Origin: Bryobacterales bacterium
GTDB taxonomy: Bacteria; Acidobacteriota; Terriglobia; Bryobacterales; UBA6623
Assembly (NCBI GenBank): GCA_028819255.1
Contig: JAPPMB010000135.1
Coordinates: forward strand, 1 to 64,000
Length of the DNA stretch: 64,000 nucleotides
Direction of reading: 5' to 3'
The translations under genes were made by a program, and so were the position numbers. Of the stretch, positions 3 through 45,086 are shown piece by piece; the stretch's first letter is position 1, and every line of letters starts with the position of its first letter. The notes below the pieces were generated by a model. The model saw only the letters and a program-made list of their open reading frames with translations. It had not been told where the DNA came from and searched no databases.

Positions 3-3000
3 GTCCTCAAGACGGCGGGAACGGTCATCGTCGACGAGATCCACGCCGTAGCCGGGAACAAGCGGGGCTCCCACCTCTCCCTCTCCCTGGCGCGGCTCGA
101 GCGGCTGTCGGAAACCGAATGCGGGACGCGGATCCAGAAAATCGGTCTCTCGGCCACCGTGCGGCCGATGGAGGACGTGGCCGGCTTCCTGATCGGCAAA
201 TCGCGCGAACGGATCTGCCGGCTGCTCCGCTTCGGCCACCAGCGGGAGATGGACCTGTCGGTCGCCGTCCCGCAGGAGAGCCTCGGCCCCGTCGCCACCA
301 ACGAGCAATGGGAGGAGACCTACGACGCGATCGCGCGGCTCGCAAAGCAGCACAGGACGACCCTGATCTTTGTCAACACGCGGCGACTGTCCGAGCGCGT
401 CGCCCATCGGCTGGCGGAGCGGCTCGGCTCCGAAGCCGTGCTGCCGCACCACGGAAGCCTGTCCCGAGAGCTTCGCCTCGAAGCCGAGGACCGGCTCAAG
501 AGAGGCGACCTCAGAGCGGTGGTCGCCACGGCGTCGCTCGAACTGGGAATCGACATCGGCACGGTGGACCTGGTCCACCAGATCGGGTCCCCCCGCTCGA
601 TCTCGTTGGCGCTGCAGCGCATCGGGCGCTCGGGCCACTGGGTGGGCGCATTGCCCAGGGGACGCCTGTCCCCCATGTCCAGGGACGATCTCATCGAATG
701 CGCCGCCCTGGTGCATGCTATTCGGGACGGCGAGCTGGATCGCCTGCGCATCCCGAAGGCCCCGTTGGATGTCCTGGCCCAGCAGATCGTGGCCGCGGTG
801 GCCTGCGAGAAGTTCGAGGAGTCGGACCTCTTCAGGCTGGTGCGACGGGCCCACCCGTACCGCTCAGTCCCTCGCCAAGACTACGACGCCGTGCTGGAGA
901 TGCTCTCCGAAGGTGTCGCCACGGCCCGGGGACGCCGCGGAGCGTACCTGCACCGCGACCGCGTCCACGGCCTGCTCCGACCCAGGCGGGGAGCGCGCCT
1001 CGCGGCGATCACATCGGGCGGAGCGATCCCGGACACGGCGCAGTACCTCGTCCTGGCCGAACCGGCCGGCACCACCATCGGCATGGTGGACGAGGACTTC
1101 GACGTCGAAAGCAGCATCGGCGACGTCTTTCTACTGGGGACCACGTCGTGGAGGGTCCGGCGTGTGGAATCGGGCCAGATCCGCGTCGAAGACGCTCGCG
1201 GGGCGGCTCCTTCCATCCCGTTCTGGCTGGGGGAGGCCCCCGGCCGGACGGCGGAGCTCTCGAGCTACGTGTCCTCGCTGAGGATGCGCATCGACGAGAT
1301 GGCGGGGAACGGCCCCGGCCAAGCCGAGGAGTTCCTAGCCCGGAACTGCGGATTGGATCCGTCGGGCGCCGGGCAGGCCGTCCGGTACGTCGCCGCCGGT
1401 AAAGCCGCGCTGGGCGCGGTTCCGACGGCTCACAGGATAGTCGCAGAGCGCTTCTTCGACGAGGCCGGCGGGATGCAGCTTGTCATCCACGCGCCACTGG
1501 GATCGCAGATCAACCGCGCATGGGGCCTCGCCCTGCGCAAGAGGTTCTGCCGCAGTTTCAATCTTGAATTGCAGGCGGCTGCCACCGACGACGGCATTGT
1601 CATCTCGCTGACGGAGCAGCACTCCTTTCCGCTGGATCTGGTCTTCGGATTCGTTCAGCCTGCGAGCCTGCGGCGCGTGCTGACGCAGGCCCTGCTCGAC
1701 TCGCCCATGTTCTCAGCCCGATGGAGGTGGAACGCCTCCCGCGCGCTGGCCGTCCTGCGGTTTGCAGGAGGCAGGAAGGTTCCAGCCCCGCTTCAGCGCA
1801 TGCGAGCCGACGACCTGCTGGCCGCCGTGTTTCCCGACCAGGCCGCATGCGCCGAAAACCTGTCGGGCGAAATTCGCATTCCGGATCATCCCCTCGTGCG
1901 GGAGACGATCGGCAACTGCCTGCACGAGGCAATGGATCTCGACGGGCTGGCGACCCTGCTCGAATCGATTCGTTCGGGAGCGATCGAGACAGTGGCGGCG
2001 GATACGCCCGAGCCGTCTCCGTTCTCCCACGAAGTCCTCAATTCAAACCCCTATGCGTTCCTGGACAATGCGCCGCTCGAGGAGCGCAGGGCACGCGCGG
2101 TGCAGATGCGCAGGGTGCTGGATCCCGGCCGGCCGGCCTTGGACGGGGCTCTTGACGCACAGGCGATCGAGACCGTGGAGCGCGAAGCGTGGCCCCTCGT
2201 GCGCGATGCGGAGGAACTCCACGACGCCTTGCTCACGCTCGTGGCCCTGCCGCAGAGGGCAGAGTGGATCGAGCATTTCGGGGTGCTGGCCGGCCAGGAC
2301 CGGGCGACGAGCCTGGAAATCGAGGGCCGGTCCTTCTGGGTGTGCGCCGAGCGACTCGCTCTTGCGAGGCAGATCTATCCGGGGGCCGAGGCTCGGCCCG
2401 CAATCGGCGCCGTCGATCCGGTCCGCCCTCTTCCGGAAGGCATCGAGTCCAGCATTGCCGAAATGCTCGGCGGCTGGTTCGACAGCGTGGGTCCGCGAAC
2501 CGCGGGATCCCTGTGCGAGCTGCTGCGGCTCCCCGAAGCGGCCGCGGGGTCGGCGCTGGCCCAGCTGGAGGGCGAGGGCCGCATCCTCCGCGGCCGCTTC
2601 AGCAACGCCCGCGGAAACGGGGATCTGGAATGGTGCGATAGGCGGCTGCTGGCTCGGATCCACAGGCGCACGCTAGGCAGGCTGCGACGCGAAATCGAGC
2701 CCGCCTCGAGCGCGGACATCATGCGGTTCCTGCTGCGCTGGCAGCATGCGGTGCTGGGAAGGAGGCTCCACGGCACCGACGGCACTCTGCAAGTGATCAG
2801 GAAGCTCCAGGGCTACGAGATCTCCGCCGCGGCCTGGGAGGCGGGGGTTTTACCTCTTCGAGTGGCGGACTACAAGCCGGAACACCTGGACCGGCTGTGC
2901 CTTTCCGGCGAAGTGATCTGGTGCAGAATGTCGCCGCACCCGGCCTTTGCCCGGGACGGCGGCGACGCCTCTTTCAGTCCGGATCGACGCACGCGCCCAG

Positions 3001-38206: not shown

Positions 38207-38590
38207 TCACACGCCGAGCACCTGCCGAAACCAGACAACGCCTGCTTCACTCTCCTTACGGGTCACATCATCGATCGTTTGGTCGTGTCGAATACTACTC
38301 CGGAGTTCCACGACGTGGTCGAAGCGCTTCACACGAGTCTCCTTGTTGAGGAACCGCGAGTGGAACCGTGGAGCGAGTGACTTCTCGGTGACTACATCCT
38401 AGAGTTCGAACAAGTCTACGTATTCCGGCTTCCCATCTAGAGCCGAGTAGCGGTCCGCATCGAGGGCCGAGTTCTTCCTGCGCACACTCCCGATCCGTCT
38501 ATCGAGCCTCTGGAGTATGTGATTCGGGAGCGTCGCGACGTTACTTGCGAGTACGTCATTGACCAAACCACGAAGGGTGAGTTCGATTTA
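38207..38590 (-). pseudogene. HEPN-like (Swt1-type) C-terminal tail severed from the DUF262 gene by in-frame TAA and carrying an internal TAG
   Basis: Same frame as DUF262 ORF: ..LDAQVE*IELTLRGLVNDVLASNVATLPNHILQRLDRRIGSVRRKNSALDADRYSALDGKPEYVDLFEL*DVVTEKSLAPRFHSRFLNKETRVKRFDHVVELRSSIRHDQTIDDVTRKESEAGVVWFRQVLGV*. TAA 38588-38590, TAG 38399-38401, end TGA 38207-38209; RSSIRH matches the RX4-6H HEPN motif. Confidence 0.75.
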
Positions 38591-40420
38591 CTCGACCTGA
38601 GCGTCCAGCTCACGAAGTTGCGGAGGCAGATCCAGCCGCTCCGAGATCGCATTCTGCAGTGTGCGCTGACGTTCCTCCAAGAATGATTCGTAGTCTGCAG
38701 AAGTGAAGGGATCCCGCAGAAGAATATCGAAACCAGTGCGGGAAATGTAATGAGATTCCAACGTCTTGCGAACCGTGACTTCACCATGTTCTTTGACTAA
38801 TTCTGGAATGTACTCGTTTGGAAGTCGATCTCTAATGGCTTTCCGATTGGTGTCGGCCGTGAGTGGTGTGCGGTTCAAGATAGTGTCGATCGATGTATCA
38901 TGAGTGTGTTCTTTCCTCCATTTCTTGGGAACGATGTGGTGGTCATCAAGATCGTCATGCTGAGGGACATTTCCCGTCATCCAATCGCGAGCTCCGTGTA
39001 GGACTAGCAGGTTAAATATGCCATTGTATATGGATGTTCCACGCCTAGTTTCACGCCGAAAATCGATACTTAGAAACCGTGAGTTGAAGTCTGAAATGAG
39101 AACTGGTTTGGCGGTTTCATCTTCAAACCAGTTCTTCAATTCCAGAAAATCCCGTGCGCTGGTTGACTCGACCGAACCCGAATAGCGGTTAGTGAACACG
39201 CTCACCCAATACCAATACCGAAGCTTCCGAAGGGCGTCGAATTGACGATTCATTGGTTGCTGCCGTGCGGCTGACTGAATCGCAGCGAACGCCGGAAGAA
39301 TGGAGGCATAAGGAAGGTAACGAGACGAGATGGCACCAAACTCTTGAGGATGTCGTAACAAATCTATTGCACGCTTGAGCGCATCGACCGCGATATCCCA
39401 CCATTCTTGGAATTCTTCGGGGCTGCAAACCAGAATTTCCTTTCGCAACGAGCCATCGGCACTACGGACGTTCTTCTCGACTCCCGGCACAAGATAATAG
39501 AGATATTTCGGCGAGCAGTAGGTCTGTCGCAGAATCGACATCACTTGGAGAATGTAGCGGTTCATCCGATTGGTTTCCACAAAGTCGAGTTTCGGCTTTG
39601 CGGCACGCCAAAGATGCTTCAACTGAATTTCCTTCGGCTTGAGGAGTGCGTTGATCAAGTCAAATACATCAAGTGGCCTGCCACGGCGGTTGATTTGCGT
39701 GAAGATACCACAGACCTTGTCGATCTGGATGTCCTGATCGAGTTCTATGAACGCGATCTGGTACTTCACAGTGATGCCTTCCAAGTGCTCTCCGAAGGCC
39801 TGAGCATTCTCCACATGTTGATTAGCGAGCAGTGACTCGGCCTCGTCGCCTTTGTTCTCAGCTTGAGCTTCCTTGTCCAGCCAGTGTTTCTTGTAGTCAT
39901 CAACCCAACGGACCAGTGCCCAACTGCCATCTCCGACCACCGCCAAAGGGAACATGTGATTTTCGAATTGATCGGTTCGGTTTTGGAGAAGGTTTCCGGC
40001 ACTCCGCTTCCAATCGTACTCGAAGGATTGGTCGTAATTCTCCTTCAGAAACTGGTCCACTCGGATAAAGTATAGGAATCGATTCTTTCGGCTTGGAGCG
40101 GGCACATCCGGCGCAAGGAATGCATAATACATAGCAGTGAGCCGCTGTTGACCATCGAGAACGATGTGGGTCGGGTCACCGCTGCCTTGGAATCCGTAGA
40201 GCGGCTCGCATGCAAGATCATTGAAGCTCCTATCTGTACCCTTCCAAAGCAGCACGTTTCCGATGTAATAGTCAAGGAATATCGAACGAATGAGTTCACG
40301 TATGTCCCATGGAGTCCACTCAAATTCCCGCTGGAAGTCCGGAATAACATAGCAGCCCTCACGAAGTCGGTCGATTAAGACTGTCAGACTAACGTGACCT
40401 GGCTTCTGAGCGTCTTTCAT
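38588..40420 (-). CDS. DUF262 (GmrSD-like) protein with HNH-like C-terminal motif
   Basis: IPDFQREFEWTPWDIRELIRSIFLDYYIGNVLLW, HIVLDGQQRLTAMYYAFL (DGQQR), GIFTQINRRGRPLDVFDLINALL, DDLDDHHIVPKKW. Composition visibly more AT-rich than the rest of the window. Confidence 0.9.
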   Translation of the reverse strand: MKDAQKPGHVSLTVLIDRLREGCYVIPDFQREFEWTPWDIRELIRSIFLDYYIGNVLLWKGTDRSFNDLACEPLYGFQGSGDPTHIVLDGQQRLTAMYYAFLAPDVPAPSRKNRFLYFIRVDQFLKENYDQSFEYDWKRSAGNLLQNRTDQFENHMFPLAVVGDGSWALVRWVDDYKKHWLDKEAQAENKGDEAESLLANQHVENAQAFGEHLEGITVKYQIAFIELDQDIQIDKVCGIFTQINRRGRPLDVFDLINALLKPKEIQLKHLWRAAKPKLDFVETNRMNRYILQVMSILRQTYCSPKYLYYLVPGVEKNVRSADGSLRKEILVCSPEEFQEWWDIAVDALKRAIDLLRHPQEFGAISSRYLPYASILPAFAAIQSAARQQPMNRQFDALRKLRYWYWVSVFTNRYSGSVESTSARDFLELKNWFEDETAKPVLISDFNSRFLSIDFRRETRRGTSIYNGIFNLLVLHGARDWMTGNVPQHDDLDDHHIVPKKWRKEHTHDTSIDTILNRTPLTADTNRKAIRDRLPNEYIPELVKEHGEVTVRKTLESHYISRTGFDILLRDPFTSADYESFLEERQRTLQNAISERLDLPPQLRELDAQVE

Positions 40421-40431
40421 ATTGTCATCTC

Positions 40432-40746
40432 TTAACCGAGGATCTCTTCCAATAACGGAATCTTCACTTCCTCTACGTCCAGAATGTCCGCCGGAATGTT
40501 TTCTAGAGTCCGCATTGGATTGGGTTTCTTGAAGTGTCAGGTGAGGCTGATCTCATAGCCGATCTCTTCACTCTTCGGGAGATACCAAGCGTCCTCAGCG
40601 TACGGGAGAACTTTGCGTCCTCGGAATCCCTCAGTCCCGCCAACGTCCTGCAATGCAACCTGCCCAGTATCGCACAGTTCGGAATCCGGCTCGTACTCCA
40701 CGACCAAATGCTGGGTGCGATCGCCAAGTCCGTCGAGACCTGTCAC
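40432..40746 (-). pseudogene. C-terminal relic of a type I restriction-modification methyltransferase subunit (HsdM-like) with in-frame TGA
   Basis: HLVVEYEPDSELCDTGQVALQDVGGTEGFRGRKVLPYAEDAWYLPKSEEIGYEISLT*HFKKPNPMRTLENIPADILDVEEVKIPLLEEILG*; TGA at 40537-40539, same frame on both sides. Resembles HsdM C-termini (VEYVPDSELRDTE.., KIGYEISFTRYFYKPxPLRTLEEIRADIL..). Confidence 0.78.
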
Positions 40747-40934
40747 CAGGTTGGCAGTAGTGTCACGCGATGCAGCTTATCGATCCTAGTGCCGACCGTC
40801 TCGTTCGGCTCGGCCAGCGTATCATGTATCGGCCTCTTCCGCTTCCCCGTCATCGTGACTCTGTGACACGGCTCTCCTCGCTGACCACCTGTAGGAAACG
40901 ATTGAAGTCAACGTGAGGGTTAGGGCCAACCCTG

Positions 40935-41219
40935 TCACTCGCAGCGCTTGCATATCGAAACCGCATCTCTGAAGACCCCGAGCGGCACCGCCTGCACACG
41001 CATCTCCAGCACGGGCTCCAAGGAGCGCAGGGCGTCATTGTGAGAGAGCCGACCGGGGCGGCTGGCGCGGGTCGCCTGATGGTAGAACTCCTGGAGAACC
41101 TGTACCGAGACCGCCAGATCCGGCTCTGCCAAGAGTTCCCTTGCGCGAATGCGCTTGTCCTCCTCTTCGGGGAGGGTACTCGCTGCGTGGAGCAGTACGT
41201 TTGTGTCGACTAGGCGCAC
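40935..41219 (-). pseudogene. VapC-like PIN toxin, C-terminally truncated
   Basis: MRLVDTNVLLHAASTLPEEEDKRIRARELLAEPDLAVSVQVLQEFYHQATR...LGVFRDAVSICKRCE*; ends where PIN homologues continue with the conserved C-terminal Asp region. Confidence 0.72.
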
Positions 41220-41228
41220 ACAGGTCGA

Positions 41229-41558
41229 TCAGCTGTCCGTGTTCGGGAGGCTGGCCGGACCCGCGTCGGAATGGGTCACCGCACTGCCGTAGAGCGCCTC
41301 GCGGGGCAGGTTGTCGGCCATTCGCAGCCCCACGCCGCGCGCGTCAAAGTCGACGAAGACCGCTTTGAACAGCCTGCACCTACGGTCAAGCGCGGACTCG
41401 CGGGCTTGGTACTCCGGCCCCTCGCTCCGTCCGGCCCGAGGTACAAGACGCTTCAAGAACTCGTGCATGAGCACCGGCACCGACATGTCCAATTCCGCCG
41501 CTCGGGCGCGGGCACGGCGATGGGTCTCCTCGTCGACGGATACAGTGATCTTCCGCAT
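41229..41558 (-). CDS. VapB-like RHH antitoxin (partner of 40935..41219)
   Basis: MRKITVSVDEETHRRARARAAELDMSVPVLMHEFLKRL ... RMADNLPREALYG; ends 9 nt before the PIN ORF start. Confidence 0.75.
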   Translation of the reverse strand: MRKITVSVDEETHRRARARAAELDMSVPVLMHEFLKRLVPRAGRSEGPEYQARESALDRRCRLFKAVFVDFDARGVGLRMADNLPREALYGSAVTHSDAGPASLPNTDS

Positions 41559-42231
41559 TGCCAGCCTCGTAGGTTCTATGTTTCACAGGATAACCTCCCT
41601 TCAGCGGTCAGTGCAATTCCTAGGCCGTGGCAGGTCTGCCGAGGAACCGCGCATGGGCGTGTCCGAATCCATAGGCTGGTCGGCGACCGCAGGGGCGGCT
41701 CCGCCATCGAGGTGTGCGCGAGCTTGCCCGTTGTCTTCCGATTCCGGGACATCAACACGTGCGATCGCGAGGCGGTCGGCTACCACCGGAGCGAGACCTC
41801 CCAAGTAGCCGTGAGTCAGTTAGACAGCGAGGTTTCGGTCAGCTTTGAGTTCGGCTACCCATGTATCTCTTGGGTGGAGCCTGAGGGGGTGTATCGGAAG
41901 GGTGACCGTTGGGGCGGGAATCGCCCATGGGATTGCCGCGATTCTGTCAACGGCCTCAGGCGCGCCCGAGGTCCTCCGGATCTGAGACTGCGCTCTCACC
42001 CTGCACTGTCCAGCACAGCCAGCATGCCGCTGCTCAGTCGCTCTTCTCACTCCCTCGAACTCGCCGGTCCCGAGGGTGGTAAGCCGCTCCGACTCCTCAG
42101 GCCGCTGTCCAACGGATTGGCTACCCGGGTGGGCAAGCCTGTTGCATCCAAGGCTAACGGGGCCAGAAGAAGAATCAGCCGTCCTCGTCACGACCACGAC
42201 GAATGATAACGATCAGGCATACTAAGTCTTC

Positions 42232-42456
42232 ATGATCCGGACGCAAGTCAGTCTTTCCGAACACGAGTACGAGGCAGCCAAGCAGGAAGCCGCCAGACTC
42301 GGCATTTCACTTGCTGAGCTGTTGCAACGTTCGCTGCGCACGCTGATCCCGCTGGACACCTCGAAGCCGTGGATGCGTTACGCCGGGATGGTCGGGACGG
42401 CGGATCCCCAGTCGAGCGGGCGTATTGACGAAATCGTCTATGGCACCAAGTCCTGA
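42232..42456 (+). CDS. RHH/VapB-like antitoxin
   Basis: MIRTQVSLSEHEYEAAKQEAARLGISLAELLQRSLRTLIPLDTSKPWMRYAGMVGTADPQSSGRIDEIVYGTKS; overlaps the following PIN relic by 17 nt. Confidence 0.82.
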   Translation: MIRTQVSLSEHEYEAAKQEAARLGISLAELLQRSLRTLIPLDTSKPWMRYAGMVGTADPQSSGRIDEIVYGTKS

Positions 42457-42712
42457 AGCGCTACGGCCGCACGAAGGCGCGCTCCACTTCCTTGCTATGG
42501 TCGAATCCATCAGCATTATGGATGTGGTCCCGACAGGCGCCCGCGACATCGAAGCAGCTTCCGATCTGATGCGGCGTTTCTCGGATCAGGACCTAACCCT
42601 TGTCGACTCGGTCGGTCTGCACTTGATGGAGACTCGAGGAATCAGCATGTGCTGGTCAACCGATCATCATCTGGGACTAACCGGAGTACAGCTAGCGATT
42701 CACCTCCAGTAA
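42440..42712 (+). pseudogene. VapC-like PIN toxin with N-terminal/internal deletion
   Basis: MAPSPEALRPHEGALHFLAMVESISIMDVVPTGARDIEAASDLMRRFSDQDLTLVDSVGLHLMETRGISMCWSTDHHLGLTG; C-terminal half of PIN (DQDLTLVDSV..) present, but the N-terminal LVDTS-type motif is absent. Confidence 0.72.
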
Positions 42713-42851
42713 CCTCCGTTTCCTTGGGTCATCTGAGCTTGCAGCTCGGGAACTTGCCAGTGCCAGCGGGTGGTTCTTGAGACGCTGGCTTCCGCCGGCA
42801 TTCGTGCGGCATGGGCAATTCGCGGACCCACAGGGCCTACCGCGCCTGCGG

Positions 42852-43250
42852 TCAGGGCAACGTGCGAACCAGCGCTGCGTCAATGATTCGGCGATCCCTC
42901 GTCAACAGCGTCGCACCGAACACTCGGGCGGTCGCGACAAGGATTCGGTCCGCGGGATCGCGGAGAAAGGAGTCAGGTAGTGCGGCCAGCTCCGCCGCAA
43001 TGGCCGGGGAGATGCCCTGTCGCCGAACCAGAGGCGGAGCCACCGCCTTGTCCAGCCAAGTCCGCAGGGGAATTGCCAACTCGATGCGACCCAGGCTATA
43101 CAATGTCGCCACTTCTCAAATCGAAGTATCAGACACCAGCAGCGGTGACTCCGCGGTGGCTGATGCGACGACCTCCCGCTGAGCCGGTGAGAGTCGATCG
43201 CTGTCGTTGAGCCACCAGATCAGGATATGCGCGTCCAGAAGCACTGTCAT
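42852..43250 (-). pseudogene. VapC-like PIN toxin interrupted by in-frame TGA (probable Trp codon)
   Basis: MTVLLDAHILIWWLNDSDRLSPAQREVVASATAESPLLVSDTSI*EVATLYSLGRIELAIPLRTWLDKAVAPPLVRRQGISPAIAAELAALPDSFLRDPADRILVATARVFGATLLTRDRRIIDAALVRTLP*; TGA at 43116-43118 replaces the usual Trp of SxxWEVATL. Confidence 0.85.
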
Positions 43251-43516
43251 GAATCCAAGCTCTCCCAGTGTTCTTCCGGAACCGCCGGCTTGACAATGTC
43301 GCCGGCCTCGATGACGGTCCCCTTGAGTTCCAACTGTGCGTACTCGGCATCGGTTCGGCTTGCGGGCAGCAGTTCCGCAACCGGCCGTCCGCGCTTCAGG
43401 ATGACCAACCGCTCTCCAGTGGTCTGCACGCGATCAAGGATCGCCAGACACCGGGCTTTGAAGTCGGATGCGTTGATAGTCCGCACATGACCAGTGTTGG
43501 AGACCAGGCGGACCAT
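43247..43516 (-). CDS. Phd/YefM-like antitoxin
   Basis: VRTINASDFKARCLAILDRVQTTGERLVILKRGRPVAELLPA; ATGA overlap with the PIN start at 43250. Start ATG 43516 or GTG 43486. Confidence 0.87.
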   Translation of the reverse strand: MVRLVSNTGHVRTINASDFKARCLAILDRVQTTGERLVILKRGRPVAELLPASRTDAEYAQLELKGTVIEAGDIVKPAVPEEHWESLDS

Positions 43517-43778
43517 GTCAAACCAGACGACGCCGGTGCAGTTCAGGAACGCCCATCGGGATGGCCGTCCCTGAAGCCGGCCGTTCACACATGTCTCTCC
43601 GATTTCGCGGTCCTTGCCACTCGCTTTCCCGTGCGACCTGAGGGGCAGCGTGGGTGACGATCCGCGTCGCAAGGGGAGGGACATGCGGAATGGCGCCATA
43701 CGGTCCCATCGCTGTCACGCGATTTCAAGGAAGTGCTCGATGAACCGTAGAAAGCAAGCGTATCGACGGAACACTGCA

Positions 43779-45086
43779 CTAGATGAACGCAACAGACCCG
43801 TCCGCACGGAAGTCAGTGGTCCTCTTCCAAGGGCGGGGCGGGTAGTGCCTGAATGCCTCCTCGTTGAGTTCCACACCCCAGCCGGGCTTGTTCGGGATGT
43901 CCGCGTAGCCGTCCCTGACCATCGGCGGCTCGTCCAGCACATCGCGCCGGGCATCGTCGACGGGAGCCCTGTACTCCAAGATCAGGAAGTTTGGCGTCGA
44001 GGCTGCGAAATGGATGTTGACCATGGTCGCCAGCGGACTCATCGGATTGTGCGGCGCGACCATGATGTACTGGGCCTCGGCCATGGCTGCGATCTTTTTC
44101 ATCTCCATGATTCCGCCGCAGACGCACACGTCGGGCTGCACAACGTCCAGCGCCTGGATGTTGATTAAGTCGCGGAACTCGAACTTGGTGTAGTTGCATT
44201 CCCCCGACGCGAGCGGGATGTTGACATGGCGGGCCAGCTTCTTCATGGCGTCCGGATTCTCAGGCCGGATGGGCTCCTCCAGCCAGAATGGGGCGTAGGG
44301 CTCGATTTCCCTGGCGACCCGGATCGCGCGCTGGACCTCGAAGTAGCGCGCATGGATGTCCACGGCTATGTCGTGGTCCGGGCCCACAGCATCCCTGACG
44401 GCGCGGACACGCTCTCCGGCCGTGCGCGTGACCTCGTTGTAGGGCATCTGGTTGTCGCCCCGGTTGTGCGGGGACATCTTGCAGGCGTTGTAGCCGAATC
44501 GCTCGCGAAGCTCGACGGCGTTCTCGGCCGCTTCCTGAGGCGTGGATCCACCGATGGACTGATACAGCCGGACCTTGTCCCGCACGCGTCCTCCAAGCAA
44601 CGCCCAGACCGGCAGGCCCGCGGCCTTCCCCGCGATGTCCCACAGGGCGTGCTCGATGCCGCTGATGGCCGAATTAACGACGGAACCTCCGGGGAACCGA
44701 GTCGTGTTGTACATGTAGTCCCACAGAAACTGAATGTTCCGCGGATCCTGTCCAACCAGCCAGCGGCTGTAGTCCTCGACGACCTTGGCGGTCGCCTCAT
44801 CGGGCCCGCATGAGTAGGCCTCGCCGATACCGTGGATCCCCTGGTCCGTGCTCACCTTTACATAGACCCAGTTGCGGCCGCTGATCGTGGCGGAACCTCC
44901 CTGTCCTCCTCGCGTGCTGCCGACAAGGAATGTCTGGATGCCCGTGATCTTCATCGGCGGCTGGCCTCCGATCTGGGCGGGAGCCTGGAAGGGCGCGGCC
45001 GCGGCGGCGGCCGCAAGGCCACCCCTGCTGAGGAAGGATCGGCGTTGCACAGGCAGCAGTGTGTCGAACGCGTGGCGCGGTGTCAA
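43779..45086 (-). CDS. Tat-exported mandelate racemase/muconate lactonizing enzyme (enolase superfamily)
   Basis: VQRRSFLSRGGLAAAAAAAPFQ Tat motif; DIAVDIHARY..., FWLEEPIRPEN, IPLASGE, VVQPDVCVCGGIMEMKKIA. Confidence 0.92.
   Translation of the reverse strand: MTPRHAFDTLLPVQRRSFLSRGGLAAAAAAAPFQAPAQIGGQPPMKITGIQTFLVGSTRGGQGGSATISGRNWVYVKVSTDQGIHGIGEAYSCGPDEATAKVVEDYSRWLVGQDPRNIQFLWDYMYNTTRFPGGSVVNSAISGIEHALWDIAGKAAGLPVWALLGGRVRDKVRLYQSIGGSTPQEAAENAVELRERFGYNACKMSPHNRGDNQMPYNEVTRTAGERVRAVRDAVGPDHDIAVDIHARYFEVQRAIRVAREIEPYAPFWLEEPIRPENPDAMKKLARHVNIPLASGECNYTKFEFRDLINIQALDVVQPDVCVCGGIMEMKKIAAMAEAQYIMVAPHNPMSPLATMVNIHFAASTPNFLILEYRAPVDDARRDVLDEPPMVRDGYADIPNKPGWGVELNEEAFRHYPPRPWKRTTDFRADGSVAFI

Follow-up and report, generated by a model that had tools for sequence, protein, structure and literature searches.

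Three adjacent toxin-antitoxin pairs with open antitoxin frames and broken PIN toxins in a Bryobacterales genome: a probable case of toxin-first decay

Orphan antitoxins occur commonly, and there is debate over what they mean (PMC7354431, PMC7192599). According to the accounts given in PMC7167474 and PMC2654758, the chromosomal ccdO157 pair of E. coli decayed by deletion and nonsense mutation (Mine et al. 2009), which is read there as the drift of a selfish module. The locus presented here resembles ccdO157, as summarised in those accounts, in that chromosomal type II toxin-antitoxin (TA) pairs degenerated by deletion and nonsense mutation, and differs from it in that it comprises RHH-PIN and Phd-PIN pairs, three of them adjacent, from an uncultured Bryobacterales bacterium, and in that the rate of antitoxin evolution after toxin loss was estimated. 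The orphan antitoxins of Klebsiella pneumoniae likewise have no functional toxin and many of them lie in the genomic context of an intact pair (PMC7192599); that study left the choice between decay and anti-addiction open, whereas our dN/dS analyses favour decay, in one family. We found no precedent, in the open-access literature searched, for a rate test of orphan antitoxins with same-locus controls. Compared with VapBC (RHH-PIN) and Phd-PIN modules, the pairs described here share the antitoxin-toxin order, the PIN toxin, the predicted RHH antitoxin or the Phd antitoxin, and the existence of intact relatives; unlike functional modules of both types, all three toxins appear to be dead.

In the 64,000-nucleotide stretch that we analysed (the window), positions 40935-43516 carry an RHH-PIN pair on the minus strand, an RHH-PIN pair on the plus strand and a Phd-PIN pair on the minus strand, adjacent to one another. 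The host genome has 6.7 Mb in 174 contigs (G000:C174) and 41 PIN-domain matches. Reading of the open frames together with the sequences of relatives revealed that the antitoxin frames were open in the three pairs and that the PIN toxins were lesioned in all of them. The original prediction held on both counts: its six units were recovered where it had placed them, and the distinct lesion that it had proposed for each toxin (C-terminal truncation, N-terminal loss and a nonsense codon) was identified against relatives. Profile searches recovered the six units only in part, since PHD3 exceeded the cut-offs and PIN1 and PIN3 matched PIN, but RHH1, RHH2 and PIN2 scored below them. The relatives compared were metagenome-assembled genomes (MAGs) of Bryobacterales and Terriglobia (Acidobacteriota), many of them from marine sponges according to our own reading of the isolate names, and they supplied intact-toxin counterparts for every module. 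TA and restriction systems are over-represented in sponge symbionts (PMC5649159). As in decaying TA pairs, intact homologous pairs existed elsewhere, the toxin was disrupted and the antitoxin frame was open; the locus is a clear instance of the chromosomal TA decay already described.

The three pairs were flanked by an intact GmrSD_N-type gene and by a mandelate-racemase-like gene (43779-45086). The former (38588-40420, minus strand), the next gene of the island, encodes a 610-aa defence-like protein of the GmrSD_N/DUF262 type (PF03235, 111 bits; PDC-M55C/HEC-05-like in PADLOC). Between it and the first pair, tblastn with the HsdM protein of L036, a homolog classified by PADLOC as a type I methyltransferase (MTase_I), detected a C-terminal remnant of hsdM, a type I restriction methylase gene (40438-40933, minus strand; residues ~392-557 of 561), which bears two frameshifts and an in-frame stop and adjoins the PIN1 truncation. 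This remnant beside the intact GmrSD-type gene is the trace of a former defence island. An interspersed repeat (41798-42117) lies between modules 1 and 2; about seven more partial copies, with 73-83% identity, were found in the same genome (contigs C63, C86, C114, C42, C149, C163 and C132), and it was nearly missing from relatives. A plasmid origin was discarded, as plasmid records gave no DNA match to the locus, and so was conserved synteny, as only the mandelate-racemase-like gene (43.8-45.1 kb) was common to relatives and its neighbours differed. An Rfam search of the window returned a single tRNA.

In module 1, the antitoxin RHH1 (41229-41558, minus strand) is an open ribbon-helix-helix frame of 109 aa, VapB/FitA-like, whose match to the Pfam FitA-like_RHH profile was weak (15.5 bits, under the cut-off), and its assignment rests on gene order and on the relatives L102 and L103, which have an intact PIN partner. 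A spurious 311-aa ORF overlaps RHH1; short open frames are common in such GC-rich DNA. PIN1 (40935-41219, minus strand) is the remnant of a VapC-type toxin that retains the first ~91-92 of ~135 residues (positions 2-85 of 120 in the Pfam PIN profile) and is devoid of the C-terminal part carrying the conserved SYWD and ED motifs. Its alignment to the intact relatives of ~135 residues (L102 and L103, in G009 and G005) ended at residue ~91-92, at the junction with the hsdM remnant, and the simplest account of this lesion would be a deletion that fused PIN1 to hsdM. The nearest copy of the module (L035 in G007) also had an open antitoxin, and its toxin carried a substitution of the catalytic Asp by His and a frameshift.

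Module 2 was intact in four congeners (G001, G003, G005 and G009). Its antitoxin, RHH2 (42232-42456, plus strand), is an open ribbon-helix-helix frame of 74 aa with 76-79% identity to the antitoxins of the intact modules (L031-L034); it scored under the Pfam cut-off, and its ortholog in L031 passed RHH_1 (22.4 vs 20.5 bits). PIN2 (42440-42712, plus strand; 90 aa) derives from a VapC-type toxin by a net in-frame internal deletion and corresponds to the C-terminal fragment only (Pfam PIN, 13.9 bits, under the cut-off), sharing 66-74% identity with the C-terminal half of the intact toxins of the four congeners. Comparison with L031-L034 showed that 143 bp have been deleted between two direct repeats of 9 bp, CCTGAAGCG, both of which are present in the relatives (with one mismatch in the first copy of L032), while the window keeps one. 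The deletion probably arose by slippage between the repeats, the single remaining copy being its signature. A two-base insertion restored the frame, leaving the 90-residue open frame from which the N-terminal catalytic Asp and Glu are gone. Both modules 1 and 2 preserve the gene order of VapBC pairs, and neither toxin has the complete set of acidic catalytic residues.

Module 3 combines a Phd/YefM antitoxin with a PIN toxin whose full-length frame is no longer open. PHD3 (43247-43516, minus strand) is an open frame that scored over both cut-offs (PF02604, 42.1 bits; TIGR01552, 29.8 bits), and it was aligned with 11 relatives; its start may be the inner GTG. PIN3 (42852-43250, minus strand) is a full-length VapC-type frame that scores as PIN, in which one in-frame TGA (43113-43115) stands where six relatives invariably have Trp, and in which LLDAH has replaced the near-catalytic LLDTH (DTH to DAH). 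Stop-codon reassignment or selenocysteine was rejected as an explanation for this TGA, as the relatives have Trp at this site and a single case does not indicate a different genetic code. The module was intact in five relatives (L021, L022, L023, L025 and L026). Homology between the window and the relatives was limited to ~42845-43541 (~690 bp), that is, to the module itself, so its copies occupy different genomic places, as if the pair moved as a minimal cassette. The Phd-PIN module (L160-L239) was present in MAGs labelled Acidobacteriota, Gammaproteobacteria, Gemmatimonadota and Alphaproteobacteria. In copies mostly from Gemmatimonadota (L182, L183, L185, L189, L195, L196, L199, L205-L207 and L234), ~77 bp separated the last matched antitoxin codon from the toxin start; elsewhere the genes nearly overlapped. 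A second copy in the host genome (L030, G000:C40) lies on a 5.4-kb contig and is cut by the contig end. In the tree, its antitoxin was almost identical to that of L194, from a Paracoccaceae MAG, which would reflect either a recent transfer between phyla or an error in the binning of the contig.

We consider it very probable that the cluster represents ordinary asymmetric decay, starting with breakage of the toxin and followed by drift of the antitoxin left behind, and that it does not preserve a new system. The locus would be a remnant defence and addiction island in a Bryobacterales (Acidobacteriota) genome, whose three TA pairs would have been acquired independently and whose toxins would have been lost by ordinary mutation: the deletion joining PIN1 to hsdM, the direct-repeat slippage in PIN2 and the nonsense substitution in PIN3. 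An antitoxin lesion beside a still active toxin would arrest growth, so that the survivors would be the lineages in which the toxin broke first; once the toxin is dead, the antitoxin would be released from selection, drift and eventually be lost. The sequence comparisons directly displayed the lesions, the relatives with intact toxins, a toxin-first bias and a raised dN/dS of toxinless antitoxins. Before toxin loss the antitoxins were presumably essential, and those of the window probably have no present role.

Alternatively, the antitoxins might have been selectively kept after toxin loss, either as anti-addiction proteins against incoming modules of the same type or as regulators of paralogous modules, a role that has been proposed in reviews (PMC7354431, PMC7192599, PMC2654758) and that was part of the original prediction. 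It would fit with the wide distribution of intact Phd-PIN modules in MAGs of several phyla, whose antitoxins are up to 85% identical to PHD3, with the paralog in the host genome (L030 at G000:C40) and with the PHD3 branch not being relaxed. Antitoxins kept for a purpose would hold a low dN/dS after toxin loss. Using a purpose-written codon model, we obtained dN/dS (w) values of 0.114 on paired and 0.257 on orphan branches of the 11 module 3 antitoxins (p = 0.008; some nodes of this tree had low support). For 73 antitoxins, with background branch lengths held proportional to the IQ-TREE fit, w was 0.098 for the paired background and 0.198 for antitoxins with a broken toxin (p = 1e-4), and 30 sets of ten paired tips drawn at random all fell short of this value (at most 0.132). 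L168, L227, L229 and L230 were individually raised.

The most direct comparison came from the same locus with and without a toxin: L022 in G015 is intact and L027 in G017 has suffered a toxin-only deletion of ~254 bp (flanks 90-93% identical), while the pair is intact in G009 and G010 and broken in G005 (L029; flanks 87-93% identical). As L027 and L029 have intact orthologs within the same flanks, their terminal branches mostly follow toxin loss. Their w values, 2.5 and 1.8, could not be distinguished from 1 and lay far above the background rate (p = 2e-5 and 0.008, respectively; p values were left uncorrected across the several per-branch tests). This comparison and the 73-antitoxin test share data, since L168 and L227 correspond to the loci L027 and L029. 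In module 1, w was 0.097 versus 0.448 (p = 9e-5), RHH1 being raised together with its dead-toxin relative L035. In contrast to the class as a whole and to module 1, the branches of RHH2 (0.34 vs 0.26) and PHD3 (0.12-0.15) showed no significant relaxation, and neither did a second Phd-PIN family (G001:C183 and G003:C193 plus four intact orthologs). The pooled orphan w was significantly below 1, which we attribute to branches that span time before toxin loss. The low rate of PHD3 says nothing about retention, because the dead PIN3 toxin was equally slow on the window branch (0.157), marking a recent toxin death. Since the rate of the orphan class doubled, and the antitoxins with same-locus intact orthologs evolved neutrally, the evidence favours asymmetric neutral decay rather than retention, which we regard as improbable for the group. 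It is slightly less probable still that PHD3, freed of its toxin, would now protect against the incoming Phd-PIN copies found across several phyla; PIN3 died too recently for the rate test to bear on such anti-addiction, which found no support.

A further explanation to be weighed against asymmetric decay is that the lesions fell at random, the toxins being hit through their greater length and the short GC-rich antitoxin frames being open by chance. Relatives with an intact toxin exist for each module, so the lesions in the window are derived. However, three toxin lesions out of three prove little (P ~0.21 for lesions distributed by length), as toxins make up ~60% of each pair, and half of the neutral antitoxin frames are expected to be still open at dS ~0.09-0.12. 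As the window alone did not go beyond chance, the question was put to related loci, about a hundred gene pairs. In 22 loci the toxin was broken beside an open antitoxin, the opposite was seen once, and both genes were broken in two. The ratio of 22 to 1 departs from lesions proportional to length (P = 1.3e-4), with the proviso that an antitoxin query, which is biased towards loci whose antitoxin is recognisable, supplied nine of the 22. The toxin-anchored part of the tally alone gave ten toxin lesions out of ten (P = 0.006).

The individual searches showed the same trend. Among 21 genomes searched with both toxin and antitoxin profiles, a broken toxin beside an open antitoxin was found in L124-L130 and L132, and both genes were broken in L131. 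The toxin was open in 27 of 30 toxin-anchored loci, and in all 27 the upstream frame at the antitoxin position was also open. Through the Phd antitoxin, 80 named loci were collected (L232 was omitted as unclear and L236 is truncated by a contig end), of which ~69 were open pairs; in nine the antitoxin was open and its toxin either broken or absent, in one both genes were broken, and in none did an open toxin accompany a broken antitoxin. A pair in the host genome (G000:C77) also had an open antitoxin and a TAG within the toxin. A disrupted antitoxin beside an open toxin frame, the arrangement that would speak against the original prediction, occurred once, in L136 (G005:C62), where the antitoxin (~1223-1396, minus strand) has a true internal stop. 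The toxin of this pair has an altered catalytic motif, DASAL, in place of the usual DTSAL, and it was perhaps already weak. Apparent antitoxin stops in L133, L134, L135, L137, L138, L164, L186, L187 and L209, and likewise in L210, L213, L214 and L223, lay upstream of the start codon and were discarded. Random lesions are therefore a distinctly unlikely explanation. Although the genome is a 174-contig assembly, it is very improbable that the lesions are assembly or consensus errors, as each of the three is of a different kind, the repeats at the PIN2 deletion measure just 9 bp and are too short to mislead an assembler, the PIN1 junction adjoins a remnant gene bearing further lesions, and the orphan status recurs in independent genomes.

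Altogether, the toxin-first course that the original prediction had put forward is borne out by the related loci and by the relaxed selection on leftover antitoxins, whereas its proposal of anti-addiction or regulatory proteins found no support for the group, both same-locus cases being neutral. The TA literature has not settled whether orphan antitoxins are purposefully retained or are leftovers, a question that related loci, above all those that share their flanks but differ in the presence of a toxin, make testable from sequence. In the family studied here, the answer leans towards leftovers, and the window would be one ordinary example.
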